Below are positions 19,218 to 23,551 of a DNA stretch of 44,500 bases, one piece after another. A program made the position numbers and the translations under genes. Below the pieces are notes generated by a model. The model had not been told where the DNA came from, did not search any database, and was given only the letters and a program-made list of their open reading frames with translations. Source of the DNA: Arcobacter sp. (lineage in GTDB: Bacteria > Campylobacterota > Campylobacteria > Campylobacterales > Arcobacteraceae). The stretch spans positions 155,387 through 199,886 of the forward strand of contig PKUK01000003.1 of the NCBI GenBank assembly GCA_002869535.1, read 5' to 3'. Each line of letters begins with the position of its first letter. Positions within the stretch are counted from its first letter, which is position 1.

Positions 19218-20501
19218 TTATTTACCAAATTCTGCAATTAATGACTCTAAATCATCACTATCTACTAAATAATCAGAATGATCACCAGGTAAGTGATTTG
19301 CACCTGGTAAATTAACACTCTTTGATTCATCATCAAATATAGAATTTAATTGACGAGAAAGATTTATAACCAATCCCATAACTCTTTCTATTTTTTGTCT
19401 ATTTATATCATGAAATTGCATTAATTCCATTGTTTCAAAAAGTTCTTTATCTCTATTATGTAATCTTGTTTGTATCTCTTTTGGCTTATCAATTAAACCA
19501 TTAATTGTCTCCAAGTTATCAGAGAACTCTTTTACTTTTGGAAATTTTTTACTTAACATTTCTAAGAGTTTCAGTTGGGACTGCATAAACTCATCTAATG
19601 TTTTTGTTGTCTTTCTAAGTTCTTCATTATCATCTAAAATATAACTTAAGGCATCAAAAATTTTTGTTGCTTTCTCTTCTGAATCATTTGCAACTTCTCC
19701 TAATTGGTTAGGAATATTAATTTTATCAACATTTACAACATCATTACTTTTTTTATTAGAAGAAGAGCTTGTCTCATCTTTTACCTTATCCATTGCATCA
19801 ATAGAATCAGCATCTAAGTTGAAATCTAAACCACTTAAGTAATCATCATCTTCAGACTCTTTACTTGTCTCTAAACCTGCAATCATATCATCAATTTCAC
19901 TTGTGTCTACATCTTCATCTTTAGTAGCATCTTCTTCTGACATAATTCCATTTATAATTGAATCTATTTCATCACTTGATACTGAAGAGTTTTCATCTTC
20001 TTCTTTTGAACCTGTATCTTTCTCTTCATCAACTGAATTTAATAACTCGTCAATATCTGTATCTGAAACATCATCTGGAGTTTTTTCCTCTTCAGATTCG
20101 CTTTTTTGAGAATCTTCTTCTGTATTATTATCCATTGAATTTAATAATTCGTCAATATCAGTATTAGAAAAATCTTCTTTAGTCTCTTTTTCTTGGCTTT
20201 CACTATTTTGTGAATTTTCTTCTGCGTTTTCACTCATAGTATTTAAGAGTTCATCAATATCTTCAGTAGAAGCATCTCCTGAAGGCTTTTCCTCTTCTGT
20301 TGTAGAAGTATCAGTACTCTCTTCGCTCTTTACATTTGAATTTGATAAATCAGTTTGTGCTATTAAATCAGCTATATCATTTTCTGACATATTTTCTGAA
20401 TCTTTTTCATCAGAAGATGAATCATCATTTTCAGAATTTTCGTTTTCAGAGATATCCAAACCATTCATTAAAGCTTCTATCTCTTCTTGACTCATACTCA
20501 T
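19218..20501 (-). CDS. cheZ: CheZ-like CheY-P phosphatase with multiple CheY-binding-type motifs
   Basis: The 427-residue protein has two parts. Residues 270-395 form a long helical hairpin with LMQFHDINRQKIERV (360-374), matching the CheZ catalytic motif: D365 and Q369 sit in the D-x-x-x-Q spacing of E. coli D143 and Q147. Residues 1-240 are very acidic and repeat the short motif S-x-x-[DE]-I-[DE]-x-[LMI]-[LIM]-x (starts at about 4, 39, 78, 112, 146, 175, 200). The C-terminus repeats it as DSDDLESLIAEFG. The motif resembles the CheY-binding peptides of FliM's N-terminus and CheZ's C-terminus. cheY lies 20 bases upstream. Confidence 0.8.
   Translation of the reverse strand: MSMSQEEIEALMNGLDISENENSENDDSSSDEKDSENMSENDIADLIAQTDLSNSNVKSEESTDTSTTEEEKPSGDASTEDIDELLNTMSENAEENSQNSESQEKETKEDFSNTDIDELLNSMDNNTEEDSQKSESEEEKTPDDVSDTDIDELLNSVDEEKDTGSKEEDENSSVSSDEIDSIINGIMSEEDATKDEDVDTSEIDDMIAGLETSKESEDDDYLSGLDFNLDADSIDAMDKVKDETSSSSNKKSNDVVNVDKINIPNQLGEVANDSEEKATKIFDALSYILDDNEELRKTTKTLDEFMQSQLKLLEMLSKKFPKVKEFSDNLETINGLIDKPKEIQTRLHNRDKELFETMELMQFHDINRQKIERVMGLVINLSRQLNSIFDDESKSVNLPGANHLPGDHSDYLVDSDDLESLIAEFGK
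19965..20270 (-). repeat. Three tandem 102-base units in the cheZ-like gene
   Basis: Codons 78-179 form three 34-residue units, each starting with S-[TND]-[ET]-D-I-D-E-L-L-N or its variant S-S-D-E-I-D-S-I-I-N at the far end. Spacing between successive serines is exactly 34 residues (78, 112, 146), so the units probably arose by in-frame tandem duplication. The linkers diverge but keep Glu/Ser/Asp composition. Confidence 0.7.
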
Positions 20502-20521: not shown

Positions 20522-20893
20522 CTATTTTTTAAATACACCATCTAGTTTTTCTTTTAATATTTCGGCATTAAAAGGTTTAACAATATAATTATTAACTCCA
20601 GCTTTCAAAGCAGTTATAACTTCGCCTTTACCACCTTCAGTAGTAATCATAATTATAGGTGTACTTTGATGATTACCCTCTTTTCTAACTTTTTTAACTA
20701 AATCAAGTCCATTCATATTTGGCATATTCCAATCTGTCAGAATAACGTCATACTGTTTTTTTGCCAACATTCCCCAAGCTTTAACTCCGTCTTCTGCTTC
20801 ATCAAAATCTTCTTTATCAATTCCTAATTGCATTACGACATTACCAATAATTCTTCTCATAGTAGAACTATCATCAACTATAAGTATTTTCAT
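20522..20893 (-). CDS. cheY: Chemotaxis response regulator CheY
   Basis: The 123-residue single receiver domain has all active residues: D7/D8, the phosphorylation site D54 (ILTDWNMPNMNG), T84 and K106 (NNYIVKPF). Phosphorylated CheY binds the switch to change rotation. It is the first gene of the minus-strand run and lies 20 bases before the cheZ-like gene, a natural kinase-output/phosphatase pair. Confidence 0.93.
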   Translation of the reverse strand: MKILIVDDSSTMRRIIGNVVMQLGIDKEDFDEAEDGVKAWGMLAKKQYDVILTDWNMPNMNGLDLVKKVRKEGNHQSTPIIMITTEGGKGEVITALKAGVNNYIVKPFNAEILKEKLDGVFKK

Positions 20894-22285: not shown

Positions 22286-23551
22286 ATGGCAGAAAATCAA
22301 GAAAAAACAGAAGCAGAACTTTTAGAAGAAGCTATGCAAAATTTGGGTTTAGAAGAAGTTGTTGATGAGGGAAAAGCTGAAGAAACATTAGTTGAAGGTG
22401 CTCCCCTTTCAGATGAAGATATTGAGTCTTTAATAAAAGAAGATGAACCAGAAGAAAAAACTCAAGAAAGTCCGCAAGATAATCAACCCACTGACACTGT
22501 AGAAAAAAATGACTCAAAAGATGAAATATCTGATGTAGATGATATTAATTTAAACAATTCAACTGCAGATGAAATAGATGAGATACCTGATAACTCTGTA
22601 CTTAAAGATGAAGAGTTTGATGTTCAAAAAAAGCAAAGTAAAATTGTAAGAAGTTTAATTGTTATTGTATCAATACTATTAACTTTTGTATCTATTGGTG
22701 TACTACTTTATTTTGTAGGTTTTTTTGATTCATAACCAGTTAAAACAGAAATTAAGCCAGAAGTCGAAAAAACTCAAAAAGCTCAAAAAGATGAGTATGA
22801 ATTTAAAGAAGCAGATATTGATGCAAATAGATTAAATAAAAAGTTAAACTTATTAACAAAATATGAAATTGTTGAGAATAGTGCAACTGAAGAGAAGAAA
22901 GCTATAGAAAAAGAGAATTTATACCTTGAAGCTAAAAAACAACTTGAGATGGAAAGACAAGCTCAAATTGAAAGAATAAAAGAAGCAGAAAGAAAAAGAC
23001 TAGAAATGACACTTCCTCCTGTTCAAAAAGAAGAAGATATTAGTCAAACTATTGATAAAGAAATAGAAAAAGTAATTGATAAAGAAGAGACTCCAGCTGT
23101 GGCTGTAGTTGAAGTAGATAATAGTGCTTCTGTTGAAGAAAAAACAAAAGATGAAGAAGTAGCAGCTAAAAATGATGAACAGCTTGTTACTCCAGATGCA
23201 GTAATAGTAAAAGTTGATGATTCGCAAGTTACAGTTGTTGAACCAGTTGTTCCTGTAGCAGTAGTTGAGCCTATTATAGAAGAAAAAGCTAAGAGTCAAT
23301 TTGTAAAAATCATTAAAATAGCCACAAAAAGTCAAGATATATACAAATCATTCCTTGATAAAATATATTCTGTAAGTGATAATGTGACATTATGTAGAGA
23401 TTATCAAAATAATGTTGAAATATTTATTGGCACTTTTGATGATGATTCAAGTAGGGATAAAATCACAAAAGAGTATGAATCAAGATATAATATAGATGCC
23501 CAAGAGTATGATTATACAATCGAAGAGTATGATGAAAGATGTAACTACTAA
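22286..23551 (+). pseudogene. Single-pass membrane protein with acidic cytosolic and SPOR-like periplasmic parts, cut by an in-frame TAA at codon 150
   Basis: Residues 1-118 are acidic and contain a FliM-like motif (LSDEDIESLIKE, 41-52). A membrane helix spans about 120-146. Three residues later TAA (22733-22735) interrupts the frame, which then stays open for 271 more codons: PVKTEIKPEV, a long coiled coil (KKQLEMERQAQIERIKEAER) and a C-terminal region like a SPOR fold (TLCRDYQNNVEIFIGTF). Reading through gives 421 residues. The truncated product would end at the outer face of the membrane. It follows flgG; a role in motor assembly or signalling is inferred from context. The 3' end overlaps rimM, which is convergent. 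Confidence 0.75.

Follow-up and report, generated by a model that had tools for sequence, protein, structure and literature searches.

An Arcobacter CheZ-type phosphatase carries an array of FliM-like peptides predicted to bind several CheY-P

CheZ switches off the swimming-direction signal CheY-P, and Bacillus subtilis FliY is likewise a CheY-P phosphatase. The contact between CheY-P and the C-terminal peptide of E. coli CheZ is established (PDB 1F4V, 1U8T). The N-terminus of FliM makes an established contact with CheY-P as well (PMC7355467), and B. subtilis FliY carries a FliM-like N-terminal CheY-binding peptide (PMC8809382). The largest flagellar locus of Arcobacter contains a cheYZ pair, and its CheY (CheYz), not the other four CheY of Arcobacter, has been argued to be the motor CheY that talks to FliM (PMC9321776). 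In the literature searched we found no phosphatase with several CheY-P-type peptides. Here, we describe an Arcobacter CheZ-type protein in which a FliM-like peptide recurs along an N-terminal arm, and compare it with these systems.

The gene lies in a stretch of 44,500 nucleotides from Arcobacter sp. (hereafter the window), within a flagellar gene cluster, and runs on the minus strand from an ATG at 20501 to a stop at 19218. The open reading frame of 427 aa is as an earlier note on this DNA had given it. Residues 256-426 match the profile NF041271 (Phos_CheZ) at an E-value of 7.5e-27 and 94.4 bits, which falls short of the 350 bits set as equivalog cut-off at the Helicobacter level, as is the case in all 104 family genomes searched, and in a genome search PF04344 (Pfam CheZ) gives an E-value of 4.4e-5, under its curated cut-off. 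The phosphatase core, residues 256-393 (19323-19736, minus strand), is a long helical hairpin in the AlphaFold monomer model, with helices at 263-319 and 338-393 and a pLDDT of 90-98 over most of the hairpin. The catalytic D365-x-x-x-Q369 (19395-19409, minus strand), a pair already picked out in the earlier note, aligns with D143xxxQ147 of E. coli CheZ in both HMMER and hhalign, and both residues are invariant in an alignment of 62 CheZ sequences. A fold search with the whole model is uninformative on the CheZ fold because generic helical hairpins dominate the matches; many of these are unrelated, and 1kmi_Z ranks only 7th (E-value 0.88). The core profile match, the D-x-x-x-Q and the linkage to cheY bear out the earlier assignment to the CheZ-type phosphatases and, judged by sequence, the window protein is a Campylobacterota-type CheZ phosphatase.

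The gene for CheYz (123 aa, 20522-20893, minus strand; PF00072 E-value 6.9e-29) lies 20 bp upstream of cheZ, and its product is likely to be the substrate of the window CheZ. Its closest PDB entry is an H. pylori-type CheY (3gwg, E-value 1.2e-44), and it is found in the same locus at 91 of 93 cheZ loci. CheYz aligns with E. coli CheY across the FliM-contact face, and the equivalents of D57, W58, T87, K92, Y106, K109, F111, L116 and K119 are invariant in 91 of 91 loci. In some relatives cheY and cheZ are in the same reading frame.

Residues 1-255 of the window CheZ (19737-20501, minus strand) form an acidic, mostly disordered arm with 88 aspartates and glutamates and 44 serines among its 255 residues. 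The confident AlphaFold core does not continue into the arm, where the pLDDT between motifs is mostly <50 and short helices appear at the motifs. All motifs are encoded on the minus strand. Motif 1, residues 4-12 SQEEIEALM (20466-20492; helix 5-12), is FliM-N-like and is the best match in the window to the E. coli FliM and own FliM peptides. Motif 2, residues 39-47 SENDIADLI (20361-20387; helix 40-55 in a block of pLDDT 82), is a loose match with one departure and is kept in both congeners. Three strict matches sit in successive tandem units, namely motif 3, residues 78-86 STEDIDELL (20244-20270; helix 80-95), motif 4, residues 112-120 SNTDIDELL (20142-20168; helix 114-124), and motif 5, residues 146-154 SDTDIDELL (20040-20066), the only motif without a predicted helix. 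They are followed by motif 6, residues 175-183 SSDEIDSII (19953-19979; helix 176-187), another strict match, and by motif 7, residues 199-207 DTSEIDDMI (19881-19907; helix 201-211), a relaxed match whose context VDTSEIDD[LM]IAGLE is preserved in both congeners. Residues ~229-239, DADSIDAMDKV (helix 232-242), may be a ninth, degenerate copy. Beyond the core, a C-terminal motif, residues 414-422 DSDDLESLI (19236-19262; helix 415-426), is the counterpart of the C-terminal CheY-P peptide of E. coli CheZ.

The earlier note had counted about eight copies of the motif. Five sites, at residues 4, 78, 112, 146 and 175, match the strict pattern S-x-x-[DE]-I-[DE]-x-[LMI]-[LIM], and the other three match only with one or two positions relaxed, namely A for [DE] at 39, D for S at 199, and D for S plus L for I at 414. 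Over the whole protein, the relaxed pattern [DE][IL][DE]x[LMI][LIM] matches seven times and a loose form eight times. In 20000 shuffles of the arm, the strict pattern was found 0.005 times on average and at most once, against five matches in the real arm, and the relaxed pattern 0.066 times and at most three times, against six; none of the 20000 shuffled arms held as many matches as the real one. The hydrophobic residues of the arm lie nearly all inside the motif units, in the pattern V/F/M....I..LL..M. A genome scan with the DNA form of the motif gave 217 matches, about the same as the 211 of a reversed control, and is hence useless by itself.

Motifs 3-5 lie within three tandem units of 102 bp (34 aa; residues 74-175, 19977-20282, minus strand; Tandem Repeats Finder period 102), which are 52-69% identical to each other in DNA. 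From one unit to another, the amino acid differs at 11-19 of 22 linker codons, and DIDELL stays the same with silent codon differences. A recent duplication at the DNA level without selection was considered as the source of the units and is rejected, given that the motif is kept at such low DNA identity. Conservation runs opposite to the pattern that the earlier note had named as adverse to its reading (linkers kept in relatives, motifs not): the two congeners are 95% identical to each other in the motifs and 75% in the linkers, and compared with the window they are ~75% identical in the motifs and 46-52% in the linkers. By these comparisons, the motifs are under purifying selection.

We compared 92 full-length Arcobacteraceae orthologues, the window's own included, with an outgroup of 50 CheZ from other Campylobacterota. 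The N-terminal copy is present in 92 of 92 and the C-terminal copy in 91 of 92 Arcobacteraceae orthologues, and the C-terminal copy also in the 50 outgroup proteins. Counting motifs across the Arcobacteraceae, a check that the earlier note had proposed, gives 118 internal copies of the relaxed pattern in 87 arms, compared with 4.07 expected by shuffling. With the loose pattern, 90 of the 92 orthologues have at least one internal copy, and there are 187 copies in all against 22 expected. Shuffling of the window arm and of the arms of its relatives rules out chance or composition as the source of the motifs. Longer arms tend to hold more copies (Spearman 0.50, loose pattern) and total length ranges from 271 to 427 aa, the window CheZ being the longest of the 92 and the one with the most copies. 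No internal arm copies were found in the 50 outgroup CheZ, in which arms of ~60-105 residues go with terminal copies only, of the types MTQEELDALM (N-terminal, slightly altered in 1 of 50) and DDIEALIASFG (C-terminal); one outgroup protein has a stray match within its core. Because the outgroup has terminal copies only, the internal array is an addition of the Arcobacteraceae. The sequences compared indicate that Campylobacterota CheZ generally have a FliM-like peptide at the N-terminus and that the double-ended arrangement is ancestral there, hence the window protein is not alone in having the two end copies.

Many Arcobacteraceae encode a further CheZ-like protein, which is short (119-163 aa) and lacks the long arm (L095-L104; for example L096:1791-2264 and L099:1905-2264); those whose sequences were read have the C-terminal motif or something close to it. 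We found no such protein in the window's genome, nor in most of genus g2. Arcobacteraceae genomes without a FliM match (G036-G039, G044 and G070) also lack a long CheZ, as expected for lost motility, and in three genomes with FliM (G048, G052 and G071) the sole CheZ match was short and weak.

The consensus of 120 internal copies, phi-[SN]-[TN]-x-[ED]-I-[ED]-x-L-[LI]-x-x-[IL] (phi, hydrophobic), matches the start of the own FliM, MAEFLSQDEIDALLDIA, which is almost identical in 30 relatives, as well as E. coli FliM, ILSQAEIDALLNGD, and the C-terminal end of E. coli CheZ, VASQDQVDDLLDSLGF. The FliM-N-type sequence [SN]-x-x-[DE]-I-[DE]-x-L-L is present in the arm motifs, and motif 1, SQEEIEALMNGL, resembles both the own FliM, LSQDEIDALLDIA, and E. 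coli FliM, LSQAEIDALLNGD. Scored against the own FliM, E. coli FliM and E. coli CheZ peptides, the arm sites ranked 4th-6th beat all 2000 shuffles; taken singly, arm motifs score only moderately against the FliM and E. coli CheZ peptides, and several rank below unrelated proteins of the window. A motif profile run against the whole genome, built partly from sequences among its own matches, places seven CheZ motifs and the FliM N-terminus in its first eight ranks. With a profile built from the internal motifs of relatives only, window CheZ motifs rank 1st, 2nd and 4th at modest E-values of 0.04-0.13.

In one alternative reading, the arm is an acidic spacer that serves solubility or packing on the CheZ core, its motifs are short amphipathic helices of a generic kind, and their likeness to FliM is coincidental. 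An ordinary N-capped amphipathic helix can also read S-x-x-E-I-x-x-L, helices of such form are found in unrelated proteins, the motif profile weakly matches unrelated PDB proteins, and the acidic arm tolerates the length changes noted above. However, the consensus is much tighter than an amphipathic helix needs, with L or I at every hydrophobic site and D or E flanking the I, the accepted CheY-P-type peptide stands at the protein's own ends in nearly every relative, and the confident AlphaFold core stops short of the arm. We regard the generic reading as most improbable.

Two other proteins came up in these searches. MSEDEIDDLLKDFEESL, at the end of a large TPR/ATPase-like open reading frame (L166, own genome C9:513783-513830), is unrelated and scores an E-value of 0.035 with the motif profile, probably a chance match; with an adjoining HNH-like gene, the frame perhaps forms a Septu-like defence pair. 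In the window, downstream of a flgG-like gene, 22286-22735 (plus strand) encodes an acidic protein of 149 aa that probably has a single membrane segment, close to the C-terminus, and that has no family match above cut-off; one motif-like stretch in it, PLSDEDIESLIKEDE, comes 8th and 10th when scored against the FliM peptides.

The explanation that we favour, and consider reasonably probable, is that the CheZ arm is a string of several FliM-like peptides by which each phosphatase would bind several CheY-P. In the arm, disordered acidic linkers connect about seven short peptides that can form helices, and the C-terminus of the protein supplies an eighth; each would mimic the CheY-P-binding peptide of the FliM N-terminus or the E. 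coli CheZ C-terminus. CheYz-P would be held by its alpha4-beta5-alpha5 face with the phosphoaspartate left free, and the flexible linkers would bring it to the D365/Q369 sites of their own dimer or of a neighbouring one, so that the arm would raise the local substrate concentration; it would also compete with FliM for CheYz-P and could buffer it. The binding of CheYz-P by the peptides, which we propose by analogy with the known ones, its stoichiometry and any kinetic effect are inferred. The earlier proposal of a multivalent CheY-P arm thus stands as the best reading, since the repeats are FliM-N/CheZ-C-like and selected and the CheY contact residues checked are kept, and two of its corollaries are not supported. 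Cooperative, switch-like removal of CheY-P is not implied by sites that act independently, because these only raise local concentration and steepness would need CheY-P to bridge dimers. Docking at the motor is unlikely, because a motif that resembles the CheY-binding peptide of FliM would compete for CheY and not bind FliM.

Bridging is the core of another reading, in which arms loaded with several CheYz-P engage active sites of other dimers in a CheY-P-driven assembly, giving a network with steep, cooperative dephosphorylation. In E. coli, the oligomers that CheZ forms with CheY-P are reported to be more active, and CheY-P has been proposed to bridge CheZ dimers by joining the C-terminal peptide of one dimer to the active site of another (PMC1447658). 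A window CheZ monomer would offer ~8 peptides for this instead of one. However, nothing in the sequence favours bridging over delivery within a dimer, for which long flexible linkers are equally suited, and we hold this assembly to be very unlikely.

The strongest rival to multivalent CheY-P binding is that the arm is a localisation device, with motifs that bind CheA, a polar landmark, FliN/FliY or array proteins instead of CheY-P. The arm would then position CheZ at the pole or array and so assume the role that ChePep has in Helicobacter; in H. pylori, polar placement of CheZ depends on ChePep (PMC11237671). Using a three-sequence ChePep profile, we found long open reading frames in 15 of 20 non-Arcobacteraceae Campylobacterota genomes and none in 41 Arcobacteraceae genomes, eight of which carry receiver-type frames (182-271 aa) that match the N-terminal receiver-like part only; the window's genome has no match. 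Localisation is a live rival because ChePep was not found in Arcobacteraceae, and growth of the array and apparent loss of ChePep coincide on this one lineage. The absence counts as a lead, because one lineage is a single event and the profile misses 5 of 20 expected genomes. Moreover, the motif resembles CheY ligands, not known CheZ-localisation elements, and the three ChePep examined have no motif array, with 0-2 weak matches in 465-664 aa. Localisation hence seems to us unlikely. It is quite unlikely that the array condenses CheZ and CheY-P into a phosphorylation-dependent network that replaces ChePep and gives steep signal removal. The idea that the array is a borrowed ChePep repeat was rejected, since real ChePep lacks it, and the window CheZ itself has no receiver domain and adjoins cheY in a flagellar locus, which sets it apart from ChePep. 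In other Campylobacterota, the interval between fliR and gmk is occupied by long acidic ChePep-type genes (L210:3803-5242, L212:4863-6857, L213:2237-3634).

The family offers a natural dose series, with two copies in other Campylobacterota, usually three to five in Arcobacteraceae and eight in the window, on one core and with one cognate CheY; the effect of repeated weak sites on a signalling enzyme is therefore testable. It also allows asking whether CheZ works without ChePep. The network reading, if true, would provide a bacterial example of a signalling switch that is tuned by motif number.

Among described systems, E. coli CheZ (1KMI; peptide 1U8T) shares with the window protein the D-x-x-x-Q on a long helix, a flexible linker and a C-terminal motif of the VASQDQVDDLLDSLGF type, but has one peptide per monomer, at the C-terminus only, and no N-terminal arm, and overall similarity is very low (PDB profile E-value 0.32; hhalign 48 columns). 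The Helicobacter/Campylobacter-type CheZ (NF041271; H. pylori HP0170) has the same core family and peptides at both ends, but its arm of ~60-105 residues is without internal copies and it works with ChePep. ChePep is also a CheZ-linked Campylobacterota chemotaxis protein with long acidic repeats, but with a receiver-like N-terminus and no motif array in the three examined. FliM has one copy of the peptide and no phosphatase domain. B. subtilis FliY, like the window CheZ, combines CheY-P phosphatase activity with a FliM-like N-terminal peptide, but on a CheC/CheX-type catalytic fold, with one peptide and as a part of the motor ring. Each part of the window CheZ thus appears to be already known, and what is new would be the multi-copy array on a CheZ.
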